This document shows positions 28,081 through 33,925 of a stretch of DNA of 64,000 nt, in pieces (within the stretch, counting starts at the first letter, position 1; every line of letters begins with the position of its first letter). Source of the DNA: Xanthomonas vesicatoria ATCC 35937 (GTDB taxonomy: Bacteria > Pseudomonadota > Gammaproteobacteria > Xanthomonadales > Xanthomonadaceae); assembly GCF_001908725.1 (NCBI RefSeq), contig NZ_CP018725.1:3100001-3164000 (forward strand), given 5' to 3'. Position numbers and translations under genes: made by a program. The notes under the pieces are model-generated. The model had not been told where the DNA came from. It made no database searches and worked only from the letters and a program-made list of their open reading frames with translations.

Positions 28081-28818
28081 ATGTTTACTCTCGACCAGGT
28101 CAGCCGCCGCTACGGCCAGGCCGTCGCCCTCGATGCGGTCTCGCTTGATTTCGCCAGCGGCATTACGACCGCGTTGATCGGCCCCAGTGGTGCGGGCAAG
28201 TCCACCGTGTTGCGCATGCTGGTGGGGCTGGAGTGGCCTGACAGCGGCACGGTCGCCTTCGATGGGGTGCCATTGGCGCGCGCCAGCCTGCAGGTGCAAC
28301 GCCAACGCATTGGGTATGTGATCCAGGAAGGTGGGCTGTTTCCGCATCTGGATGCACGCCGCAATGTGGTGCTGCTGGCGCAGACCCTGGGCTGGACGCG
28401 GCAACGCATCGACGCCCGCTTGGAAAGTCTGTGCACGCTGTGCCAGTTGCCGCCGGCGTTGCTGGCGCGTTATCCGGCCGAACTCTCCGGCGGGCAGCGT
28501 CAACGCATGGGCCTGATTCGCGCGCTAATGCTGGACCCGCCCGCATTGCTGCTGGACGAACCACTGGGCGCGCTCGACCCGATCGTGCGTTACGACCTGC
28601 AGGCGCAGATGCGCGCGCTGTTCGCGCAGCTCGGCAAGACCGTGGTACTGGTCACCCACGATGTCGCCGAAGCGGCCTATCTGGCCGACACCCTGGTGCT
28701 GATGCGCGATGGCCGCGTGGTGCAGCAGGGCAGTGCGCGCGAGCTGATCGAGCAGCCGGCCGAGCCGTTCGTGCAGCGGTTTCTGACTGCACAACGCAGC
28801 ATCGGCGACGCCGCATGA
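28081..28818 (+). CDS. ABC transporter ATP-binding subunit, quaternary-amine type
   Basis: A 245-residue ATPase of the OpuBA/ProV branch. Walker A is GPSGAGKST, signature LSGGQRQRM, Walker B LLLDEPLGALDP and switch LVTHD. It lacks the C-terminal CBS domains seen in OpuCA/ProV, so ionic-strength sensing by that route is absent. It powers the binding protein-permease fusion whose start overlaps its stop (ATGA). The pair stands directly upstream of the ergothioneine genes, so the imported compound may be ergothioneine, hercynine or another betaine; this is inferred. Confidence 0.9.
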   Translation: MFTLDQVSRRYGQAVALDAVSLDFASGITTALIGPSGAGKSTVLRMLVGLEWPDSGTVAFDGVPLARASLQVQRQRIGYVIQEGGLFPHLDARRNVVLLAQTLGWTRQRIDARLESLCTLCQLPPALLARYPAELSGGQRQRMGLIRALMLDPPALLLDEPLGALDPIVRYDLQAQMRALFAQLGKTVVLVTHDVAEAAYLADTLVLMRDGRVVQQGSARELIEQPAEPFVQRFLTAQRSIGDAA

Positions 28819-30287
28819 TGGCGCGTGTCCTTGCGGCAATGCTGCTGCTGATCTGCAGCCTCGGCGTGCAGGCCGCGCCGGTGACCATCGGCTCGAAGAA
28901 CTTCACCGAGGCGGTCATCCTGGGCGAAATCGCCACCGCTGCCGGTCGGCGGGACGGCGTGGACGTCCAACACCGCGCCCAGCTCGGCGGCACACGCATC
29001 CTGTGGCGCGCGCTGGAAACCGGCCAGATCGATGCCTACGCCGAATACACCGGCACCCTGGCGCAGGAATTGCTGCAGTTGCCAAAGGCCAGCCACGCCG
29101 AGCTACGCGCGGCGCTGGACGCGCGCGGTCTGGCGATGACCGAGTCGTTGGGGTTCCAGGACACCTACGCATTCGGCATGCGTCGCGCGCGCGCGCAGGC
29201 GCTGGGCATCGCATCGCTTTCGGATCTGGCACGCCACCCGGCACTGAAGATCGGCTTGAGCAATGAATTCATGCAGCGCGCCGACGGCTGGCCTGGCGTG
29301 CGTGCGGCCTACGGCTTACCGCAGGCCGCCACCGGGCTGGATCACGATCTGGCCTACCGCGCGCTGGAAAGCGGAGCGATCGAGGTCACCGACCTGTACA
29401 GCACCGATGCGGAGATTCCGTATTACCAGCTGCAGGTGCTGCGCGACGACCGCCAGTATTTCCCGGAGTACCAGGCGGTATTTTTGTATCGCAAGGACCT
29501 GGCGCAGCGCGCACCGGCAATGCTCAAGACCTTGCAGGGCCTGCAGGGACGCATCGACGAAGCCACCATGCAGCGGCTCAATGCGCAGGTGAAACTGCAG
29601 CGACAGTCCGAGGCGGCGGTTGCCGCCCAATGGCTGGGCGTTGCGGCCACGGCACACGCGGATTCGCGCATCGGCCGGTTGCTGGGCCACACCCGCGAGC
29701 ACCTGGCACTGGTCGGCATCTCGCTGGGTCTGGCCTTGCTGATCGCACTGCCTTTGGGCGTGCTCGCAGCGCGGCGGCCGCGGCTGGGCCAGGTGGTGTT
29801 GTCGTTGACCGGCGTGCTGCAGACCCTGCCCTCGCTGGCCGTGTTCGTCTTCATGATCCCGTTGTTCGGCATTGGCGCAAAGCCGGCAATTGCCGCGTTG
29901 TTTCTGTATAGCCTGCTGCCGATCGTGCGCAATACCCATGCCGGGCTCACGTCGATTCCGCGCGAGCTACGCCAGACCGCCGAAGCGATCGGCTTGCCGG
30001 CCTGGACGCGGCTGTGGCGTGTGGAATTGCCGCTGGCCCGCCGCACGATTGTGGCGGGCATCCAAACCGCCGCGGTGATCAACGTGGGCACCGCCACGCT
30101 GGGTGCGCTAATCGGCGCCGGTGGCTATGGTCAGCCGATTCTCACCGGCATCCGCCTAGACGATATCGGATTGATTCTGGAAGGCGCGATTCCCGCCGCC
30201 GTCCTCGCCCTGCTGGTGCAGGCGGCATTCGAAGGGCTGGAGCGTTGGGCAACCCCGCGCGGCCTGCGGCTCAGCCAGCGCGGCTGA
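28815..30287 (+). CDS. fused substrate-binding protein and permease, quaternary-amine ABC importer
   Basis: A 490-residue protein. A signal peptide (residues 1-21, ending VQA) leads into an OpuAC/OsmX-type binding domain (VTIGSKNFTEAVILGE, AYAEYTGTLAQELL, GAIEVTDLYSTDAEI, about residues 22-280). Then comes a permease domain (about 290-485) with five or six helices, the coupling-loop motif TAEAIGLPAWTRLWRVELPLA and an IGAGGYGQPILTG segment. The order binding domain first, permease last is the reverse of the usual permease-binding fusions such as BusAB or EgtU. The adjacent egtB and egtD genes suggest ergothioneine or a precursor as ligand. The start overlaps the ATPase stop. Confidence 0.88.
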   Translation: MMARVLAAMLLLICSLGVQAAPVTIGSKNFTEAVILGEIATAAGRRDGVDVQHRAQLGGTRILWRALETGQIDAYAEYTGTLAQELLQLPKASHAELRAALDARGLAMTESLGFQDTYAFGMRRARAQALGIASLSDLARHPALKIGLSNEFMQRADGWPGVRAAYGLPQAATGLDHDLAYRALESGAIEVTDLYSTDAEIPYYQLQVLRDDRQYFPEYQAVFLYRKDLAQRAPAMLKTLQGLQGRIDEATMQRLNAQVKLQRQSEAAVAAQWLGVAATAHADSRIGRLLGHTREHLALVGISLGLALLIALPLGVLAARRPRLGQVVLSLTGVLQTLPSLAVFVFMIPLFGIGAKPAIAALFLYSLLPIVRNTHAGLTSIPRELRQTAEAIGLPAWTRLWRVELPLARRTIVAGIQTAAVINVGTATLGALIGAGGYGQPILTGIRLDDIGLILEGAIPAAVLALLVQAAFEGLERWATPRGLRLSQRG

Positions 30288-32942: not shown

Positions 32943-33925
32943 ACGCCGCCGCCCATGCCATGCAACGCGCCCATGCCGCGCTGACCGACCTGCGCCCGCA
33001 GCCGGACGACATCACCGCCGATGCACTGGCCGGCCTGTCGCAGACCCCCAAGACGCTGCCGTCCAAATACTTCTACGACGCCCGCGGCTCGCAGCTGTTC
33101 GAAGCCATCACACGGCAGCCGGAGTACTACCTCACCGGCACCGAACTGGCATTGCTGGAAGCCAGCATGCCGGCGATCGCGCAGGCGATCGGCCCGGACG
33201 TGCATGTGGTCGAATACGGCAGCGGCAGTGGCCGCAAGACCGAGCTGCTGCTACAAGGCTTGCGCGATGTGGTGGCGTACACGCCGTTGGAAATTTCGCG
33301 CACCGCGTTGCTCGAAAGCACCGCGCGGTTGGCACAGCAATTCCCGCAGATCCAGATGCTGCCGGTCTGCACCGACTTCACCAAGCCGTTGCGCCTGCCC
33401 GATGCGCAGCGTCCTTCGCGTCGCCACGTGATGTTTTTTCCCGGGTCGACGCTGGGTAACTTCACCGACACTGCGGCCGTCGCCCTGATGGACGCGATGC
33501 GCCAAACCATGGGCAACGATGGCTGCGCGTTGATCGGAATCGATCTGGACAAGGACGCCAGCCTGATCGAAGCGGCGTACAACGATGCAGCCGGTGTCAC
33601 TGCAGAGTTCACCTTGAACCTGCTGGCGCGGCTCAATCGCGAGATCGGCAGCGATTTCGATCTGGACGGCTTCCGCCACCACGCGGTGTATGCGCGCGAA
33701 CGTGGGCGCATCGAAACCTTTCTGATCAGCCAGCGCGACCAGCGCGTGCAGGTGGGCGGCAAGGAATTCGCCTTTGCCGAAGGCGAAGCCATGCAGGTGG
33801 AATACAGCTACAAGTACACCGACGCGCGCTTTGCCGAACTGGCCGCGGCCGCCGGGCTCAAGGTCACGCATGGCTGGAACGATGCGAAGGACTGGTTCGG
33901 GCTGCGTCTGCTGCGTCCACTGTGA
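32939..33925 (+). CDS. egtD: L-histidine N(alpha)-methyltransferase
   Basis: About 328 residues from a TTG at 32939 that overlaps the egtB stop (TTGA), with AAGGA 6 bases before; the first ATG is 7 codons later. The SAM-binding motif VEYGSGSGRKTE and the family marker FFPGSTLGNF are present, as is KYFYDARGSQLF near the N-terminus, typical of this DUF2260-type fold. It makes hercynine from histidine and three SAM, the first step of ergothioneine synthesis. The tight link to egtB supports the assignment. Confidence 0.93.
   Translation: MNAAAHAMQRAHAALTDLRPQPDDITADALAGLSQTPKTLPSKYFYDARGSQLFEAITRQPEYYLTGTELALLEASMPAIAQAIGPDVHVVEYGSGSGRKTELLLQGLRDVVAYTPLEISRTALLESTARLAQQFPQIQMLPVCTDFTKPLRLPDAQRPSRRHVMFFPGSTLGNFTDTAAVALMDAMRQTMGNDGCALIGIDLDKDASLIEAAYNDAAGVTAEFTLNLLARLNREIGSDFDLDGFRHHAVYARERGRIETFLISQRDQRVQVGGKEFAFAEGEAMQVEYSYKYTDARFAELAAAAGLKVTHGWNDAKDWFGLRLLRPL

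Follow-up and report, generated by a model that had tools for sequence, protein, structure and literature searches.

The bacterial ergothioneine importers described by Zhang et al. (PMC9732360) were found in bacteria that draw ergothioneine from a host, and in the one from Streptococcus pneumoniae, EgtUABC, a separate ATPase works with a single chain, EgtU, in which the permease comes first and the binding domain last. In EgtU of Helicobacter pylori (8dp6 and 8dp7, the latter solved with ergothioneine) the binding domain, residues 287-552, is likewise last in the chain. Fusions of the OpuF type also join a binding protein to a permease; OpuF we take to be permease-first, and this was the order in the 20 such fusions that were read. 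Here we describe an ABC-type transporter pair found in a 64,000-nucleotide stretch of the genome of Xanthomonas vesicatoria ATCC 35937 (NZ_CP018725.1, positions 3,100,001 to 3,164,000; hereafter the window), composed of a separate ATPase and of a fused protein in the reversed order, binding domain first and permease last. In contrast to the described hosts of S. pneumoniae EgtU, which scavenge ergothioneine, the host of this pair carries the synthesis genes, and they stand next to the transporter. A literature search returned no earlier account of an ergothioneine-linked binding-first importer, which is weak evidence since most subscription journals lay outside its coverage. The locus comprises the following features:

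28081..28818, plus strand: ABC transporter ATPase, 245 residues, no CBS domain (Pfam ABC_tran, 113.9 bits)
28815..30287, plus strand: fused binding protein-permease, 490 residues, binding domain first (Pfam OpuAC 22-274, BPD_transp_1 311-482)
28878..29636, plus strand: substrate-binding domain, fusion residues 22-274 (Pfam OpuAC)
29745..30260, plus strand: permease domain, fusion residues 311-482 (Pfam BPD_transp_1)
30406..31587, minus strand: EgtE-like pyridoxal phosphate (PLP) enzyme, 393 residues, predicted C-S lyase (Pfam Aminotran_5, 66.6 bits; place beside egtB)
31653..32942, plus strand: egtB (TIGR03440, 551 bits, cut-off 360; an earlier in-frame ATG lies at 31581)
32939..33925, plus strand: egtD, histidine N-alpha-methyltransferase (TIGR03438, 396 bits, cut-off 290.9; Methyltransf_33, 358)

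The gene content given in the initial annotation, namely an ATPase without CBS domains, a binding-then-permease fusion, an EgtE-like enzyme, egtB and egtD, was confirmed by Pfam, NCBIfam and the open frames. The fusion is a single open frame, and between its ATG and the ATPase stop there is an overlap of 4 nt. The Pfam search found no CBS domain in the ATPase, and the NCBIfam matches shown for it, proV (210 bits) among them, are all under cut-off. An OpuAC binding domain, a BPD_transp_1 permease and an ABC ATPase together make an F-III quaternary-amine importer. Although it would work like EgtU, the pair departs in three features from the subcluster of S. pneumoniae EgtU, and is therefore classed as a variant of the quaternary-amine importers and not as EgtU. 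The whole block is conserved in all six genomes of the same genus in the family survey described below and in five fusion-bearing genomes of a second genus, a recurrence which shows that the arrangement is not due to chance.

The initial annotation had also proposed that the reversed fusion arose independently. Scanning species genomes yielded 578 confirmed matches, the best 80 of which, ranked by similarity to the query alignment and chosen without use of EgtD, form the set of named loci; by record title these belong to Pseudomonadota, Myxococcota, Planctomycetota, Bacteroidota, Gemmatimonadota, Nitrospirota and other groups, and many of them are metagenome-assembled genomes (MAGs). The closest named relative, at 98% over 460 columns, comes from Xanthomonas dyei. 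A tree was built from 62 binding domains, with no EgtU sequence among them; a branch with support 99 sets all 38 binding-first fusions apart, and its opposite side holds 15 permease-first fusions, of the OpuF type, together with 9 separate-gene types. Since the 38 fusions form one clade, the reversed order is, judged from this tree, a distinct line and not a local rearrangement. A separate fusion event is consistent with such a clade, but the clade is widespread, and the idea of a novelty of Xanthomonas was rejected because the fusion occurs across several phyla. In a protein search at least 7,997 of the 7,999 scored candidates had E <= 1e-40; the best 120, beyond which fusion order was unchecked, all carry both Pfam domains, and the relatives listed with a name include 'glycine betaine ABC transporter' and 'osmoprotectant transport system permease'. 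The plasmid search gave one record, from Comamonas (47% over 83%).

Two side observations concern fusions of this superfamily. Loci L131 (Gemmatimonadetes) and L140 (Latescibacterota) have the same arrangement, and their fusion proteins are near-identical, with end branches of 0.011 and 0.02; for this reason one of the two MAGs may be mislabelled or contaminated. Fifteen permease-first fusions of the superfamily (L169-L183) come from another class of the phylum, which we take to be Alphaproteobacteria; all 15 have Trp at or near position 159, but the motif ahead of this Trp is shorter by one residue, which makes the alignment unsure. They may represent a second ergothioneine-associated line, permease-first and not adjacent to egtD, and as they were picked after the EgtD of their genomes had been seen they allow no co-occurrence count.

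The evidence that ties the binding-first clade to ergothioneine comes in the first place from its co-occurrence with EgtD, which was counted in three surveys that share some genomes with one another and with the named loci, and are for that reason not independent. Of the 149 genomes of the family, 54 have EgtD and 22 have an OpuAC match; in 21 of those 22 the match is the binding-first fusion, all 21 have EgtD, and the 22nd, with an OpuAC protein of another type, is without it. In the class survey (369 genomes) a full-length fusion, with no stop over the aligned span, occurs in 22 genomes, of which 19 have EgtD (in three cases a fragment or a match just under the cut-off) as against 143 of 369 overall; the three fusion genomes without EgtD are 62, 89 and 92% complete. 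Likewise, at least eight of the 398 genomes surveyed in the phylum have a one-frame fusion among the matches listed, and EgtD is present in 8/8, compared with 111/398 overall. One-sided Fisher tests, kept separate and ignoring relatedness, gave p values of 2.7e-11, 3.1e-6 and 3.0e-5 for family, class and phylum, respectively. Unlike the binding-first clade, two other sets from this superfamily, taken for comparison, are not enriched in EgtD: it was found in 5 of 15 genomes of the class with other OpuAC binding proteins among the matches listed, and in 1 of 11 genomes of the phylum whose match crosses a stop between the binding and permease genes. In the genomes behind the named loci EgtD is present in 73 of 79, close to the transporter in 29 and elsewhere in 44. 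The latter come from the 51 loci with no EgtD nearby, for which 50 genomes were queried (42 of the 44 matches are over the cut-off), and the six genomes without EgtD are all MAGs. The pair is thus associated with ergothioneine metabolism at the level of genomes, and the co-occurrence in several bacterial groups suggests that ergothioneine makers also take the compound up.

Physical linkage, which is uneven, is a second line of evidence. EgtD lies within 10 kb of the pair in 29 of the 80 named loci, 11 of which are from Xanthomonas or Pseudoxanthomonas and 18 from elsewhere; full flanks on both sides were available for 43 loci, 15 of them with EgtD (7 of 30 outside the L068-L085 group). The arrangements vary, the transporter standing before or after egtB-egtD, or egtD alone standing before or after it, in tandem, convergent or divergent orientation. 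On the tree the linked state takes 14 changes, of which at least 6 are forced by well-supported branches, or 11 changes with 5 forced when short-flanked loci without EgtD are dropped, gains and losses not being distinguishable. Linkage is seen in isolates as well, namely Xanthomonas, Pseudoxanthomonas wuyuanensis and Panacagrimonas perspica. All 17 neighbouring EgtD proteins that were checked, from L077 and from 16 of the 18 loci that belong to neither Xanthomonas nor Pseudoxanthomonas, are over the cut-off. When the open reading frames (ORFs) of the flanks outside L068-L085 were clustered, with a crude ORF caller, EgtD and EgtB/SenA were the only families in more than four loci, not counting the pair itself, further ABC ATPases and any ORF that overlaps the pair; in three further clusters the ORFs overlap the pair, either on the opposite strand or in another frame. 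A DUF427 protein (PF04248) lies near the transporter in four of the 80 loci (L105:7740-8291; L120:1860-2354; L130:11550-11831; L144:6155-6523), and in three of them also near egtB-egtD.

By whole-domain score, the solved protein closest to the binding domain is EgtU of S. pneumoniae, at 146 bits; that of H. pylori follows with 127 bits and ProX of Archaeoglobus fulgidus (AfProX; 1sw1, 1sw2, 3mam) with a lower 115 bits. The Foldseek top match is H. pylori EgtU (E 3.3e-23, rmsd 1.6, TMt 0.91). An AlphaFold model of the fusion has a mean pLDDT of 80.9 and a pTM of 0.62, the permease part being weaker and residues 434-454 below 50. By alignment, with positions mapped from PMC9732360, the pocket corresponds to K28, F30, G59, T60, Y78, T81, F114, D116, Y118, E151, R155, Y195 and Y219, and its conservation was read over 127 fusion rows, some genomes being present in two rows. 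The aromatic cage is retained, Tyr78, Tyr118 and Tyr219 in 127/127 rows and Tyr195 in 126/127, and of the residues of S. pneumoniae EgtU, Lys242, Thr275, Thr296, Glu375, Arg379, Tyr341, Tyr419 and Tyr443 are kept with few exceptions. Two pocket-region residues are particular to the clade in the alignment, a near-invariant Trp159 and an invariant His177, where S. pneumoniae EgtU has, by our own mapping, Asn383 and Pro401, and AfProX has Leu and Pro. H. pylori EgtU, read from the alignment, agrees with the fusion in Tyr78 and Phe114 but differs in having Ser at 30, Asp at 151, Phe at 159, Ile at 177 and Phe at 195. Residue 116 (29160-29162, in GFQDTYA) is Asp in the window and Asn in the four other rows of the same genus in the first alignment; Asp116 is found in X. 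dyei (L085), in 18 of the 127 fusion rows and in AfProX.

Gene content, fusion order, clade membership, co-occurrence and linkage with EgtD and the nearest solved relatives were computed, and from these we infer the ligand. We favour, with moderate confidence, the interpretation that the pair is an ergothioneine importer of ergothioneine makers; ergothioneine appears the most likely ligand because an importer with a four-tyrosine cage is tied to the enzymes of ergothioneine and, in some lineages, of selenoneine. As an F-III quaternary-amine ABC importer, it would probably assemble from two ATPases and two fused binding-permease chains, and the class of the transporter points to import as its direction. 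Based on the alignment to EgtU, we hypothesize that in the periplasmic binding domain the four-tyrosine cage would hold the trimethylammonium head of the ligand, and that Lys28, Thr81 and Arg155 would hold its carboxylate. A maker equipped with EgtB, EgtD and an EgtE-like lyase may in this way recapture ergothioneine that has leaked out, or scavenge an outside supply. We further propose, tentatively and with less confidence, that the binding-first fusions are a separate importer clade, devoted to ergothioneine and selenoneine, which occurs for the most part in makers and has a pocket solution other than that of EgtU, in which Trp159 and His177 would take part.

Several observations weigh against ergothioneine as the ligand. 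Zhang et al. (PMC9732360) name Gly244, invariant in EgtU, and the Phe293/Tyr337 pair, the Y-to-F switch, as determinants of ergothioneine affinity, and the comparison of ligand sites suggested by the initial annotation shows that these determinants of S. pneumoniae are absent: Gly244 is replaced by Phe30 in the window and in 126/127 rows (Leu in one), and the Phe293/Tyr337 pair by Tyr78/Phe114 in 127/127 rows, as in the betaine-binding AfProX. In addition, the 58 residues at the N-terminal end of the domain, taken alone, score 29 bits with OsmF-type proteins and 24 with AfProX, as against 15 with H. pylori and 14 with S. pneumoniae EgtU. With the EgtU determinants missing and the N-terminal piece favouring OsmF- and ProX-type proteins, the notion that the nearest-relative score alone proves the ligand was rejected. 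Producers, moreover, have no obvious need for an importer. As for linkage, no EgtD was seen within 10 kb in 51/80 named loci (28 of them full-flanked) and none is listed within that distance in 21 other fusion genomes of the class and 7 of the phylum. Relatives lying far from egtBD in most genomes had been named beforehand as a result that would refute an ergothioneine link, and taken literally this is the case for the named loci, some of which are short-flanked, and EgtD was likewise not seen within 10 kb in 10 of the 21 fusion genomes of the family; yet 44 of the 50 queried genomes carry EgtD elsewhere. The N-terminal piece and the unlinked genomes of class and phylum lower our confidence slightly. 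The link to ergothioneine first proposed for this locus was accordingly strengthened by co-occurrence with EgtD, varied linkage and nearest solved relatives, and extended beyond Xanthomonas, but it was weakened by the binding site.

The main rival is a general betaine or osmoprotectant importer, for glycine betaine, proline betaine or choline, whose company with egtBD would reflect a shared ecology. The pocket agrees with AfProX, of which 1sw1 is a proline betaine complex, at the positions that discriminate EgtU, the N-terminal piece by itself is closest to OsmF- and ProX-type proteins, the listed named relatives include database names of the glycine betaine/osmoprotectant kind, and the fusion is the only OpuAC match of the window's genome, which also counts in favour of the ergothioneine interpretation. 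Nevertheless, an osmoprotectant importer would not be expected to show varied physical linkage to egtBD, the binding-first clade is enriched in EgtD where two other OpuAC sets are not, and AfProX itself departs from the clade at Trp159 and His177, so that we regard this explanation as rather unlikely. A further observation on a betaine transporter is reported in PMC12689799, in which deletion of betP, encoding a betaine carrier, slightly raised the ergothioneine output of Corynebacterium glutamicum.

Import of hercynine, the trimethylhistidine product of EgtD that EgtB and SenA consume, would allow a cell to skip or supplement EgtD. By chemistry described in part in PMC10903977, the clusters in which the transporter sits, whether for ergothioneine or for selenoneine, share hercynine as an intermediate, and five loci (L112, L119, L133, L139 and L146, three of them from the anammox genus Scalindua) have egtD near the transporter with egtB undetected in the stretch covered. 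EgtB without EgtD would then be expected, but none of the six genomes without EgtD has EgtB over the cut-off, and the 39 of the 50 queried genomes that do have it each show an EgtD match; if those six genomes are complete, this fits ergothioneine better than hercynine. S. pneumoniae EgtU also discriminates against hercynine (PMC9732360), although the pocket of the binding-first clade differs, and on these grounds hercynine seems to us an unlikely ligand.

A transporter serving ergothioneine and selenoneine alike, and mainly selenoneine in its producers, was considered because in three of the 80 loci (L108, L116 and L145) the supposed EgtB is SenA (474-518 bits, cut-off 420) and senB (377-396 bits, cut-off 300) stands beside senA, with egtD, next to the pair. 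The importer also sits, then, in selenoneine clusters, and the element these share with ergothioneine clusters is a trimethylhistidine scaffold. All three loci are from MAGs, however, and the neighbour in the window is EgtB and not SenA (331 bits as SenA, under the cut-off), which makes this explanation improbable. In L116, a Marinimicrobia MAG, a single open frame of 649 residues (L116:8649-10598) covers both SenB and EgtD, an apparent SenB-EgtD fusion. Most improbable of all is that sampling and common descent alone produced the link, without any functional tie, for although the Fisher tests take genomes as independent, many loci are MAGs with possibly chimeric contigs, the named set was chosen by similarity to the query alignment and class and phylum genomes lack close linkage, the linked state still changes at least five times on supported branches after short-flanked loci are dropped, the arrangements differ, isolates show linkage and the loci were chosen without EgtD.

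The synthesis genes of the window point to a particular route. In comparisons with solved proteins, EgtB matches 8qf6, 6qki and 6o6l at 445-446 bits, a group that we take to be the cysteine-using Cabther type, and 4x8b, presumably the mycobacterial EgtB, at only 132 bits. EgtD is present, and the best EgtC match of the genome reaches 25 bits against a cut-off of 218.65, so that none passes; EgtA stood outside this test. Since EgtB is closest to the Cabther type and no EgtC exceeds the cut-off, the set reads as a putative route using cysteine directly. The class-V PLP enzyme has as its closest PDB entry an L-cysteine/cystine C-S lyase (1elq, 54 bits), and because no NCBIfam model reaches its cut-off with this protein the name EgtE rests on fold and place. 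Its gene lies on the minus strand, where it converges with the transporter pair and diverges from egtB, so that the pair does not form a single same-strand run with egtBD, while egtD starts with TTG and overlaps the egtB stop by 4 nt. On the other side of the pair a small EF-hand protein (27709-28032, plus strand; its Pfam matches include EF-hand_5) stops 48 nt before the same-strand ATPase start.

A transporter clade found mostly together with EgtD, in several phyla and also beside selenoneine genes, raises the question of why makers would import their own product, and the fusion described here is a concrete protein with which this can be tested. If the clade is indeed devoted to ergothioneine and selenoneine, as tentatively proposed, ergothioneine makers would run a leak-and-recapture or a periplasmic ergothioneine cycle, and a large family now named glycine betaine/osmoprotectant transporters would be misnamed and its annotation would have to be corrected.

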